From an uncultured Alphaproteobacteria bacterium (GTDB taxonomy: Bacteria > Pseudomonadota > Alphaproteobacteria > UBA2966), in contig OY282368.1 of NCBI GenBank assembly GCA_958295725.1, positions 434,001 through 498,000 of the forward strand: a stretch of 64,000 bases of DNA, written 5' to 3'. Position numbers and translations under genes: made by a program. The notes under the pieces were generated by a model that did not search any database, had not been told where the DNA came from, and worked only from the letters and a program-made list of their open reading frames with translations. Position 1 is the first letter of the stretch, and each line of letters opens with the position of its first letter. Of the stretch, positions 6,792 to 39,467 are shown piece by piece.

Positions 6792-8243
6792 ATGCCGACG
6801 GTACACGCCGTTCCCGACCTTGCGCCGGCGCTGCCCGAGGTCATCCTCGCGGTCGTGGCCATGGCGCTTCTGATGCTGGGCGTCTTCCGTGGCGACGGGT
6901 CGACCCGGACTGTGTCGTGGCTCGCCGTCGCGGCGATGGCGGTCGCGGGGTTTTTCGTGATCACGGGTCCGTCGGACGGCGTCGTCACCTTCTCGGGCAT
7001 GTTCGTCGTCGACCGGTTCGCCGTCTTCATGAAGGTGCTGGTGCTGATCGGGTCGGCACTGGCCCTCGTCATGTCGTTCGGATACCTCCGGGACGAAGGC
7101 ATGGAGCGGTTCGAGTTCCCGGTCCTTCTGGTTCTCGCCACTCTCGGTATGCTCATGATGGTCTCGGCGAACGATCTCATGGCGCTCTATCTGGGACTCG
7201 AGCTCCAGAGCCTCGCGCTCTACGTGGTCGCGGCCTTCAAGCGCGAATCCCTGCGCAGTACGGAAGCCGGGTTGAAGTACTTCGTGCTCGGGGCCCTGTC
7301 GTCGGGCATGTTGCTCTATGGTTGCTCGCTGATCTACGGGATAACGGGCGCCACCGACTTCGCCGCCCTCTCCGCCGCGTTGAGCGGCGGGGGCGAGGTC
7401 CCGATCGGACTCGTCATTGGGCTGGTGTTCCTCGTCTCGGGACTGGCGTTCAAGGTCTCGGCGGTGCCGTTCCACATGTGGACGCCGGATGTCTACGAAG
7501 GCGCGCCGACGCCGGTCACGGCGTTCTTCGCCGTCGCGCCCAAGATCGCGGCCGTCGCGCTGTTCCTTCGGGTCATGATGTCTCCGTTCGGGGGCCTCGT
7601 GTCGCAATGGCAGCAGATCATCGTCGTCGTCTCCATCGCCTCGATGGTGCTCGGCGCGTTCGCGGCGATCCGGCAGGACAACATCAAGCGCCTGATGGCC
7701 TACAGCTCGATCGGCCATGTGGGCTACGCGCTCGTGGGCCTCGCGGCGGGAACCGCGGAGGGCATGCGCGGCACGATCCTCTACATGACGATTTATCTCG
7801 TCATGAACGTTGGAACCTTCGCCGTGATTCTCAACATGAAGCGCGCGGGCGCCATGGTCGAAGGGATACACGACCTGGCCGGACTCGCCCGGTCGCGGCC
7901 CTTGATGGCGCTGGCGATGGGGATCTTCATGTTCTCGCTCGCGGGCATTCCGCCGTTGGCCGGGTTTTTCGCCAAGCTCTACGTGTTCCTGGCGGCCGTG
8001 AACGCGGAACTCTATGCTCTCGCCGTTATCGGCGTGCTGGCGAGCGTCGTCGGCGCGTTCTACTATTTGCGCATCATCAGGATCATGTACTTCGACGCGC
8101 CGTCCGAGGTCTTCGATGCCCCGGTGGCGTCGGAAATGCGGGTCATCCTCGCCGCCGCGGCCGTCTTCACCCTGTTCTTCTTCGCCTATCCCGCTCCATT
8201 CCTCGCCGGCGCCGAGGCGGCCGCCCTGGCCCTCGTTCGGTGA
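6792..8243 (+). CDS. nuoN: NADH-quinone oxidoreductase subunit N
   Basis: A 483-residue antiporter-like subunit (ND2) and the last gene of the nuo operon. Motifs include [20 protein letters not shown], the [15 protein letters not shown] helix and [20 protein letters not shown]. The ATG at 6792 was chosen. The frame is open far upstream (from 4485), but that is out-of-frame nuoL and nuoM sequence with no membrane-protein character. birA follows about 40 bp later on the same strand. Confidence 0.97.
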
Positions 8244-8284
8244 CGCCACGCGATGGCGCATGATCCCGCGACCGCGTGCGCTCC

Positions 8285-9082
8285 ATGAGCGTACCGGGCT
8301 CCGGCGTCGCGCCGCGCCTTCCCGGATTCTATTCGCTGATCGCCCTCGAAGCGGCGGGCAGCACCAACGACGAAGCTCGCGCCCTTGCCGAGCGTGGGGC
8401 GCCAGCGGGCACGCTCGTCTGGGCGAAGCGGCAGACGGCTGGCCGCGGCCGCCGCGGACGGCCGTGGGAGTCCCCGATCGGCAACCTTTACTGTTCCGTC
8501 GTTCTCCGGCCGCCGGTCGGTCCCGCGGTGGCGGCGCAGCTTTCCTTCGTGACGGCCCTCGCCCTGGGGGAAGGTGTTCGGGAATCCCTGCCTCCCGGTT
8601 CCGTCGTGCGGTATAAATGGCCCAACGATGTCCTCATCGACGGCGGGAAGGTCGCCGGGATCCTGCTGGAATCCCAGATCGGAGAGAAGGGGTTGCTGGA
8701 GTGGGTGCTGATCGGGACGGGCGTCAATGTCGCCAGTTTCCCCCCCGGTACGGAACGGCCCGCGACCAGTCTGAGCCGGGCCGGGGCGAACCTGTCCGTC
8801 GTCGACGTCCTGACGGCCTACGCTCGATCGTTTTGGACGTGGTTCGTTGTTTGGGAGAGGGACGGGTTCGGGCCGGTCCGCGAGGCGTGGCTGAGGAGGG
8901 CGGCGGGTCTCGGAGAGGCCATCGAGGTGCGGCTTCCCGACAGGACCCTGAGCGGGACCTTCGACGCCCTCGATGCTTCCGGTTCTCTCGTCCTGCTCAC
9001 GTCCCACGGTCGGCGGACCGTTTCCGCCGGCGAGGTGTTCGTCGGGCCGCGAGCCGCGAGACATGCCATGGGCAATGGGTGA
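8285..9082 (+). CDS. birA: Biotin--[acetyl-CoA-carboxylase] ligase
   Basis: The enzyme activates biotin to biotinyl-AMP and transfers it to the lysine of biotin carrier proteins; a carrier with an ESMKME site lies at 16820-17041. Of 265 residues, the biotinyl-AMP loop GRGRRGRPW is at about 53-61 and the KWPNDV motif near 113, followed by a small C-terminal SH3-like domain. It lacks the N-terminal DNA-binding domain of E. coli BirA, so it is a class I ligase without repressor function. The ATG at 8285 is preferred; an in-frame GTG at 8276 is possible. Confidence 0.93.
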   Translation: MSVPGSGVAPRLPGFYSLIALEAAGSTNDEARALAERGAPAGTLVWAKRQTAGRGRRGRPWESPIGNLYCSVVLRPPVGPAVAAQLSFVTALALGEGVRESLPPGSVVRYKWPNDVLIDGGKVAGILLESQIGEKGLLEWVLIGTGVNVASFPPGTERPATSLSRAGANLSVVDVLTAYARSFWTWFVVWERDGFGPVREAWLRRAAGLGEAIEVRLPDRTLSGTFDALDASGSLVLLTSHGRRTVSAGEVFVGPRAARHAMGNG

Positions 9083-9088
9083 CGGACC

Positions 9089-9877
9089 GTGCTGCTGGCC
9101 ATCGACGCGGGTAACACCCACACCGTTTTCGCCGTCATCGAGGGCGGGGATCTCCGCCGCCAGTGGCGCGCGGCGACCAGCGCACCGCGCACCGCGGACG
9201 AATACGCGGTATGGCTGACGCAGTTGATGGAGTTGGAGCGGATCCGGTTTGCCGACGTCGGCGAGGCGATCATCTCCACCGTCGTGCCCCAGGCCCTCTT
9301 CGACCTTCGCAAGTTGTGTCGCGACTATTTCGGTTGCGAGCCCCTGGTGGTGGGAGAGGGAGTCGAATTGGGAATCGATGTTCTCCTCGAGCGTTCGGCG
9401 GAAGTGGGCGCCGACCGCCTGGTGAACGCCGTCGCGGCGGGCGACAGGCACGGCGGGCCCTTGATCGTCGTCGATTTCGGAACGGCCACGACCTTCGATG
9501 TCGTCGATGCCGACGGGAGCTACCGGGGCGGCGTGATCGCTCCCGGCGTGAACCTGAGTCTCGAGGCGCTCCACATGGCGGCGGCGAAACTGCCGCGCAT
9601 CGCGGTCGAGAAACCCCGTCGCGTCGTCGGCGGCGGCACCCTGGAAGCCATGCGGTCGGGCGTTTACTGGGGGTATATCGGCCTGATCGAAGGCATCGTC
9701 GGCCGGGTCCGGGAGGAGTTCTCGGAAACCGACGTCTCGAAAATGAAAGTCGTCGCCACCGGCGGGCTCGCGCCCCTGTTCGCGGGCGGAACGGACGCGA
9801 TCGAGCATGTGGATCCGGACCTCACGATCCGGGGCCTGCAGTTGCTGCACGAACGCAATTCCGGGAGTGCCGGGTGA
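9089..9877 (+). CDS. coaX: Type III pantothenate kinase
   Basis: A 262-residue ASKHA-fold kinase that phosphorylates pantothenate, the first step of coenzyme A synthesis. The phosphate motif DAGNTHTVF is at residues 6-14, the conserved GADRLVN segment near 110, [11 protein letters not shown] near 130 and a PGVNLS stretch near 150. It starts at a GTG 6 bp after birA, and its TGA overlaps the GTG start of the RNase J gene. The birA-coaX-rnj order is common in Alphaproteobacteria. Confidence 0.95.
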
Positions 9878-37877: not shown

Positions 37878-37937
37878 CCCGCGCGGGCCGTGACGACGGG
37901 CATCCCGTATGCGGCAGTGGATACGAGAAGGGAGATC

Positions 37938-39467
37938 ATGGTGGCGATGGTGCGCGGCTACCCGGCGACGTCGGATCGGTCGAGAGGCTGGCTCCGCTAC
38001 CTCTATCGCAAGGCGACGACGCCGGACAACTGGGACAAGGACGGCCGGCCGCACGCGCACTGGGACGACGTCACCAACGAGCCCATGGCGTCGTGGCACC
38101 GCATGGATCTGGTGAGAAGCAGTTTCGCGATACCGCTGATGGCCGACCGCACCCCGGCGTGGCGCGAAGTCTACGGCCGTATCCTGGATGAGTTGGTCAT
38201 CCGCTTCACCGGCTACTGGACGGCCAGGGACTGGCTCGAACAGATCGGCGACGACCCGAGCCGCGGGCAATATCCGGAGGAATGGTACCGGACGCTGATC
38301 CCGCCGTTCCTTCGCGGGAAATACGACGTGCCGGGTTGGACCGCCAACGGCGTCGAGCCGTGGGGCCTGCAAATGGACCCGGTCGCCGCCGACGGCAACC
38401 TGTTCTTCAAGGGAGACTTCCTGTTCGTGCTGGGTCTCCATCTCTATGTCACCGGCGACGAAAAGTGGAACCGGCCCTTCGACATGGTGCGCGACGGCGC
38501 CGACACGTTCTCCTGGACCCACACGCGGATCGCCGAGCGCCTGTTCTCCCAGATGACGAAACGGCCGGAGGGGGTCCACTGCGAGAACACCAAGATCTGG
38601 CCCATGTGAATAAGCCGCGCGGGGCTCGGTCTGGGCCTCCACGATATGCTCTACGGCAGCGATTTCCGTCTCGCCTTCGATGCTTTCTGGGACTATGCGA
38701 AACGAAACTACAACCCGATCCGGGACGGCAAGGTCACGGGTTCGCTGACGATGTACTACGACCCGCTGGTTCCCTGTCACCACCCTGTCGGCGACAGCTA
38801 CAACTTTCAGTTCGGCACGGCGCACGCTGTGTTGCCGTTGTACCCCGGCGACGCCCGTGTGCTGTACGACGACGCCATCGGCCGCCTGAATTGGCGCGAA
38901 GGGGCGTCCATAAGCCCGGAAAATGCCGAGGATCCGATGGCGTCATTCGTCCAGCTCATGGCCCGGTTCCTGGCGCGTGAATTCGGGGACGAGGCGGTCG
39001 ACGCCAGGCTGAAAGCCCATTCGGAGGCCAACGACGAGCCGAGCTGGGACACCGGGACCGGCGAATTCACGTGGCGGTTCGGGCTCGACGAACCGCACCC
39101 GAGGGGTCAGATGAACGCCACCGCAGCCCTGGCCGAGGCAGCCGCGCCGGGTGCCTGGGCCGATCTGATCGGCCGGCCCAATCTGCGCAAATTCCTGGAG
39201 CCGACGGTCCATGACGTCGATTTTCCGAAGGTCTGCCTGTCGCAGGCGTTCTATGACGTCGAGCGCCGTCTGCTGGCGGTCGCGACGGACGCCGGCGCGC
39301 CCAACGCGGCGGGAGAGCCGACGACCTTCCGCATCGCCAATGTCGATCCGGATCGCTGCACCGTCGTGGCCGACGGCGCGGTGTCGGACGATTGGCGCGC
39401 CGTCGAAGGGGATGTGGAAGTCTCGACCACGGTCGGCGAGCACACTTTTGTCATCCGCGTCAACTGA
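37938..39467 (+). CDS. Linalool dehydratase/isomerase-like enzyme with in-frame TGA, candidate selenoprotein
   Basis: The frame runs 509 residues if the TGA at 38607-38609 is read through as residue 224. Upstream, DPVAADGNLFFKG then LHLYVTGDEKW matches the KGH...YQLVTG region of linalool dehydratase. C215 (GVHCEN) matches that enzyme's Cys171, and the TGA falls nine residues later, where Cys180 belongs. Downstream, ISRAGLGLGLHDMLYGSDF continues the homology in the same frame. The catalytic His129 position is D160 (KGD). A GGGAG site 5 nt before the ATG at 37938 sets the start; a GTG at 37890 is weaker. A fitting SECIS-like hairpin follows the TGA. The last 100 residues form a C-terminal extension I do not recognise. 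The family dehydrates or isomerises alcohols such as linalool and geraniol; the substrate here is unknown. A pseudogene with a TGC/TGT to TGA change is the alternative. If TGA is a stop, the pieces are 37938-38609 and 38646-39467. Confidence 0.75.
38607..38639 (+). promoter_or_regulatory. SECIS-like element following the in-frame TGA
   Basis: After the TGA (38607-38609) come 18 nt, then the loop GGTCT (38628-38632). The loop closes a 7-bp stem of GGGGCTC (38621-38627) with GGGCCTC (38633-38639), including two G-U wobble pairs. The E. coli fdhF SECIS, as I recall it, also has GGUCU in the apical loop 18 nt after its UGA, where SelB binds. This would recruit SelB with selenocysteyl-tRNA. The evidence is sequence and spacing only. 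Confidence 0.7.

Follow-up and report, generated by a model that had tools for sequence, protein, structure and literature searches.

A predicted selenocysteine-containing member of the linalool dehydratase-isomerase-like family in an uncultured alphaproteobacterium and its relatives

The stretch of DNA analysed here (the window) comprises 64,000 nucleotides of contig OY282368.1 (positions 434,001 to 498,000 of the forward strand; assembly GCA_958295725.1) of an uncultured alphaproteobacterium of the UBA2966 lineage, and contains at 37938-39467 a gene related to linalool dehydratase-isomerase (LDI; family PF18566), in which an in-frame TGA stands at the site of a catalytic cysteine. An earlier note on this DNA read the gene as a candidate selenoprotein gene, and results of our sequence analysis strongly support that reading. 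The insertion of selenocysteine (Sec) at residue 224 appears very likely, indeed close to certain, and a non-redox catalytic role of this residue is likely. Taken as a whole, the proposal that the LDI-like protein carries Sec at the position of LDI Cys180, inserted by the Sec system of its own genome and serving a non-redox function in the active site, is in our view highly probable. The relevant features, all on the + strand, are as follows.

37938..39467, +, predicted LDI-like (PF18566) selenoprotein gene: 509 residues if UGA is decoded as Sec; terminal TGA stop at 39465-39467 (from the frame, the Pfam Ldi match and the fold with UGA modelled as Cys)
38580..38582, +, TGC codon of Cys215, the equivalent of LDI Cys171; replaced by TGA in five copies of the gene in Chloroflexota and Entotheonella relatives
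38607..38609, +, in-frame TGA, predicted Sec224, the equivalent of LDI Cys180 (from the frame and alignments)
38622..38638, +, predicted bacterial selenocysteine insertion sequence (SECIS) hairpin: 6-bp stem 38622-38627/38633-38638, loop GGUCU 38628-38632, 18 nt past the UGA
37930..37934, +, possible ribosome-binding site GGGAG, read directly upstream of the ATG at a short spacing of 3 nt; its function is presumed

The reading frame and its TGA codons in relatives

The TGA at 38607-38609 (codon 224) is the sole internal stop of the frame 37938-39467, which is otherwise open; the two open reading frames (ORFs) recognised earlier are thus one frame split by a single TGA. Cys215 lies nine residues before it (CxxxxxxxxU), and the true stop of the gene (39465-39467) is also TGA. 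While the read-through frame scores 48.3 bits against the PF18566 Ldi profile (cut-off 26.1), the N half alone reaches 20.9 bits and the C half alone gives no match in the Pfam profile search, in agreement with the claim that homology to LDI continues across the TGA. In the alignment with the PDB sequence of the Castellaniella defragrans enzyme (5G1U/5HLR/5I3T/7AD2; 20% identity), Cys215 and the TGA, read as Cys, fall on the two LDI cysteines, Cys171 and Cys180 (numbered by counting from the printed chain start), which bears out the equivalence given in the earlier note. Both catalytic cysteine positions of PF18566 are therefore matched, the second by the UGA codon, and the model of the read-through protein, with Cys at the UGA, has the (alpha/alpha)6 fold of LDI in addition to the family score.

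A TGA at the codon 224 site was found in 20 gene copies from 10 genomes, which represent three phyla, namely Pseudomonadota, Chloroflexota, and Candidatus Tectimicrobiota. For this count G001 is taken as UBA2966 and G002 as 277c_15, since their matches fall on the same places of the contigs, and G491 is placed solely by its relationship to the Chloroflexota genome G487. The genome of the window encodes three paralogues, each with one TGA at this site; within its genus, all four matches in G001 are TGA copies, and G002 has four TGA matches and one fragment without a stop. Five of the 20 copies (L016, L017, L018, L019, and L057) have a second TGA at codon 215, the other catalytic cysteine, and no copy readable in one frame has an internal stop elsewhere. 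Scattered stops in close relatives, which would have spoken against the selenoprotein reading, are thus absent from the copies readable in one frame. Although 105 of the 509 codons of the gene are one step from a stop, the relatives carry TGA at the same codon 224, five copies also at codon 215, and none elsewhere when read in one frame, which excludes a chance nonsense mutation, an event that the earlier note had called unlikely.

In a sample of 398 genomes of the phylum the gene was found only in that of the window (E 1e-30). Full-length Cys forms occur in genomes G021 and G041; among the relatives of G021, 2 of 190 matched and no additional Cys genome was found, and of the 4 matches among 143 relatives of the Defluviicoccus genome G485, two are the TGA-bearing Defluviicoccus and the others are Cys forms at the G021/G041 contig places. 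Phage records contained no relative of the Cys homologue P0001 at E 1e-10, and plasmids contained two at E 1e-20, both of Streptomyces.

Among the 120 listed homologues (of 923 matches), 110 have Cys at both catalytic sites. The other 10, with 70-86% identity, are C-terminal ORFs (285-290 residues) whose first residue is directly past the TGA. The expected homologues with Cys aligned to the TGA are thus numerous, and those with TGA and the same hairpin comprise 19 aligned copies. The search with the N half took candidates of about 123-390 residues, so that full-length proteins were excluded by design, and yielded 401 proteins, of which 120 were listed, at least two of them from the genome of the window itself. 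Ninety of the listed entries stop just before codon 224 (81 by script pattern, 9 by eye from the class 'other'), 21 just before codon 215 (19 by pattern and 2 more), 8 are Cys-Cys read-through sequences, and 1 is unrelated. Hence 111 of 120 terminate at one of the two catalytic codons, as known from protein entries, in which the stop codons themselves are not seen; this suggests that protein databases hold many such genes as two false halves. The source of one N-half ORF stopping before codon 224 (P0232) is named Acidimicrobiales; therefore, judging from this protein entry alone, a fourth phylum may also have the Sec form.

A FastTree was built from 255 N-terminal regions, of which 136 have Cys, 95 end at 224, and 24 have UGA or the end at 215. 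It requires no fewer than four changes between Cys and Sec, three of them forced by well-supported branches, and shuffled labels never gave so few changes. In a tree of 98 rows, for which 70 of the 110 Cys proteins were used, the C-terminal ORFs group with the Sec rows (Shimodaira-Hasegawa-like approximate likelihood ratio test, SH-aLRT, 95); a single Cys clade, P0001-P0005, is nested in this group, which gives two changes. These five full-length homologues are 60-65% identical to the window protein over 98-99% and differ from it in having Cys at both sites; their nested position indicates that they are possibly Sec-to-Cys reversions. One of them (Pseudorhodoplanes) is named linalool dehydratase/isomerase domain-containing.

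The hairpin and the selenocysteine machinery

The sel genes, which were sought in the genome of the window, are present: selB (416 bits), selA (561 bits), and selD (289 bits) form one cluster with a tRNA-Sec(UCA) gene (G000:C1:1872613-1872703, 75.1 bits), and the SelD is fused to a TIGR03169 oxidoreductase domain. Two further matches to the tRNA-Sec family, barely over the cut-off (49.1 and 47.3 bits), are probably other tRNAs. A tRNA-Sec was found in 15 of the 16 genomes examined, in 8 of the 9 TGA-bearing genomes (each counted once, that of the window included and G491 left out), and in 18 of 96 relatives (three carriers included). None of the 29 FdhA-type matches in eight carrier genomes has an internal stop.

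According to PMC13188914 (Fig. 2; here and below, papers are cited for the parts consulted), a bacterial SECIS has an upper stem of 4-16 bp and a loop of 3-9 nt with G in its first two positions, lies 16-37 nt past the UGA, and has a minimum free energy (MFE) of -7.5 kcal/mol or lower. The hairpin downstream of codon 224 falls within these limits, with its 6-bp stem, the loop GGUCU 18 nt past the UGA, and an MFE of -13.5 in the window and -8.5 in L016 (39 nt). The loop is GGUCU in 18 of 19 aligned copies and GGUUU in L057, and in 17 distinct rows all 102 of 102 stem cells pair; when the partner is shifted by up to three bases, the pairing falls to 10-66%. One stem pair covaries (C-G in 8 rows, G-C in 7, and U-A in 2), and a second is U-A in 11 and U-G in 6 rows.

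The conservation extends to codon choice. Among 71 invariant residues with at least four codons, only Leu230 (CTC) and Gly231 (GGT) are encoded by a single codon in all 16 Sec genes compared, followed by Leu232 (CTG in 15/16), and these three adjacent codons make the hairpin apex. The share of GGT among Gly codons is 11% over ten window ORF stretches, of which two belong to the LDI-like gene. The chance that the top three would be the apex triplet is about 1 in 57,000, a rough value that ignores relatedness and comes from a test aimed at the apex. In the DNA of the Cys homologues L031, L032, and L085, individual codons of the triplet recur but CTC-GGT-CTG as a whole does not, and the stem is predicted in none of them; dinucleotide shuffles gave z +0.68 for L031 and +1.47 for L032.

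The fdhF gene of E. coli has the same loop pentamer, GGUCU, starting the same 18 nt past its UGA, while its product, formate dehydrogenase H, is unrelated as a protein to that of the LDI-like gene. The binding of the hairpin loop by SelB with Sec-tRNA is the standard bacterial route of UGA decoding, and by this route the UGA at codon 224 would be decoded as Sec. For the UGA at codon 215 the distance to the GGUCU loop is 45 nt, beyond the 16-37 nt rule of PMC13188914. Between the two UGAs of L018, L016, and L057 the prediction gives a separate hairpin whose loop contains the second UGA; this hairpin, no more than suggestive, might serve the first UGA.

Two observations concern selD fusions. The gene at L021:12348-14603 encodes a SelD with an N-terminal pyridine nucleotide-disulfide oxidoreductase domain (TIGR03169), and its CGGCGAK segment, read by eye, has Cys and not Sec. 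In Entotheonella genome G488, about 3 kb separate a double-UGA LDI-like gene (L066, about 7623-9140) from a selD fusion gene (L066:2386-4650).

Role of the predicted Sec224 and alternative explanations

The product would be a 509-residue barrel of the LDI fold with Cys215 and Sec224 in the active site, where Sec224, paired with Cys215, may serve in general acid/base catalysis or as a nucleophile, with a hydroxyl or alkene compound as the substrate. The LDI cysteine pair has been proposed for (de)hydration and isomerisation, hence selenium would here serve a non-redox reaction. A selenol is more acidic and more nucleophilic than a thiol. Both cysteine protonation and a covalent thioterpene have been proposed for LDI, and a selenol at residue 224 would, by inference, suit either role; in quantum-chemical work cited in PMC6600392 the covalent thioterpene is disfavoured, and an aspartic acid starts myrcene hydration while the cysteine is kept for the isomerisation step. 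The five double-UGA copies are predicted to have a Sec-Sec active site. LDI proper (EC 4.2.1.127) converts myrcene, linalool, and geraniol. At 20% identity its substrate does not transfer to the window protein, for which a terpenoid or similar allylic alcohol is a working guess. The proteins also differ in that the window protein has an extra C-terminal region, beyond residue ~420, which lies outside the LDI match. LDI is periplasmic with a signal sequence; the N terminus of the window protein, read by eye only, has no obvious signal.

Several observations weigh against the proposal. G486 (1.7 Mb), the genome of a two-UGA copy, is without tRNA-Sec, although this genome is possibly incomplete. 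A tRNA-Sec is also present in the two Cys-form genomes, G021 and G041, and in four genomes of the family of the window that have no LDI-like match at E 1e-20, which indicates that the LDI-like family is not the sole reason to keep Sec. The stem varies on both sides in only one of its six pairs and on one side in another, the remaining four being invariant. Of the claim that a SECIS-like hairpin follows the TGA, its presence at 38622-38638 with exceptional conservation stands, but its folding energy is unexceptional: in dinucleotide shuffles z is -0.56 for the window, -0.04 for L018, and +0.61 for L016, a stability ordinary for the composition. Rfam gave no match in the window or at the hairpin site. 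Copies L010 and L019 and one G002 copy, split into L038/L039, are frameshifted in draft genomes. The residue H129 of LDI, which we take to be catalytic, is aligned with Asp160, and the capping disulfide Cys48-Cys101 has no counterpart, there being no Cys in residues 1-214 of the window protein. In view of the last two differences the reaction may differ from that of LDI and, given also the unmatched residues past ~420, we file the protein under PF18566 rather than as LDI proper.

It is also conceivable, though in our opinion unlikely, that Sec224 is real but forms with Cys215 a redox couple (selenenylsulfide) of an oxidoreductase built on the LDI fold; since this shares the Sec claim with the proposal of a non-redox role, the probabilities of the two overlap. 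Most uncharacterised selenoproteins are held likely to be redox proteins (PMC13188914), and LDI itself is oxygen-sensitive. Yet LDI needs its two thiols in the reduced state, and acid/base or nucleophilic catalysis is the role assigned to them, the spacing CxxxxxxxxU is neither CxxU nor UxxC, and in the double-UGA copies the other catalytic position is altered as well.

The explanations that dispense with Sec fare considerably worse. In a split gene, translation would stop at the UGA and restart at an adjacent ATG, giving two subunits that form one barrel. The next codon is indeed ATG in 9 of 19 aligned copies, and gene callers call the C half as an ORF, but that codon is ATA in the window and CTG in 9 copies, and Met after Cys occurs also in P0001-P0005. 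The break is TGA in every copy with DNA read and always at a catalytic Cys, the hairpin conserved at the codon level is not needed for reinitiation, and three pieces would be required for the double-UGA copies, which makes this explanation very improbable. Hardly more credit can be given to a reading of UGA as Trp or Cys through an altered code or a suppressor, without selenium: it would agree with the Cys at this site in the 110 full-length homologues, but TGA also terminates the same gene, the genome has a complete Sec system, and an fdhF-like loop stands beside the UGA at the fdhF spacing. For a pseudogene, a sequencing error or a chance nonsense mutation, to which the three frameshifted copies might point, the probability is close to nil, as the same codon is TGA in all 20 copies of the 10 genomes, ten database ORFs match the C half at 70-86% identity, and 111 of 120 listed N-half entries stop at one of the two codons. 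These three explanations were rejected on the grounds given.

Gene neighbourhood, novelty and significance

The neighbours of the window copy, assigned by eye, are housekeeping genes (aminopeptidase, holC, and ndk), while downstream of the L064 paralogue in the same genome lie genes for a metallophosphoesterase, a thioesterase, an SDR, and an amidohydrolase, and CoA-transferase III genes lie near the L066 and L012 copies. A comparison of these neighbourhoods gave no single substrate answer; the thioesterase, SDR, amidohydrolase, and CoA-transferase III neighbours are at most hints of the catabolism of small organic compounds. L064:8267-14936 and the congener L014:6001-11779 seem to have a downstream metallophosphoesterase, 4HBT thioesterase, and SDR in common (Pfam in L064, by eye in L014), with a PxpA-like gene inserted in L014, and may represent an operon giving clues to the substrate. 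Isolate 277c_15 carries two TGA-bearing LDI-like genes head to head, L013:1853-3367 (+) and a minus-strand copy with its TGA at L013:796-798, the latter being the frameshifted L038/L039. The frameshifted L010, L019, and L038/L039 still retain the TGA and the hairpin, and the frameshifts may be due to assembly error or decay. Among the carriers of the gene, Entotheonella is a sponge symbiont. Another carrier, Defluviicoccus bin129 (L012, MPNO01000045.1), lives in symbiosis with the sponge Aplysina aerophoba (PMC5649159).

Novelty was judged against a 2026 catalogue of 119 prokaryotic selenoprotein families (PMC13188914). Its families and the LDI-like genes are alike in having a UGA, Cys homologues, and a bacterial SECIS within the rules of its Fig. 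2; in its consulted parts there is no PF18566 in the table, no mention of linalool or dehydratase, and no CxxxxxxxxU or UxxxxxxxxU motif, though some entries carry no motif. The statement that no Sec member of the LDI family is on record thus holds as far as these parts of the catalogue go. The consulted text of the Global Ocean Sampling (GOS) survey (PMC2398784) describes seven new selenoprotein families, LDI not among them. Literature searches that combined linalool (dehydratase) and selenium terms turned up no pertinent paper, as judged from titles and abstract starts, the listed ones dealing with food, plants, nutrition, and medicine, and a search for selenoproteome with Candidatus Entotheonella gave no match; the coverage of subscription papers was thin, so that absence is no proof.

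Most selenoproteins are known or thought to be redox or metal-site proteins (PMC13188914), as in FdhA, which has Se bonded to Mo or W in its redox site. In the LDI-like proteins, Sec would replace a cysteine which in the solved homologue, LDI, is taken to act on a terpene alcohol by acid-base or nucleophilic chemistry. These genes are predicted to encode a selenium-containing enzyme family that is missing from the 2026 catalogue and likely acts in acid-base rather than redox chemistry. A bolder view, which we advance tentatively and with somewhat less than even confidence, is that of a widespread unrecognised family of selenium-dependent (de)hydratases/isomerases in which one or both catalytic cysteines are Sec, with the first Sec-Sec acid/base pair. 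If true, the finding asks what selenium adds to a non-redox active site, for which natural Cys-Cys, Cys-Sec, and predicted Sec-Sec versions can be compared, and such a family may help to explain the over-representation of Sec machinery in marine sponge symbionts.
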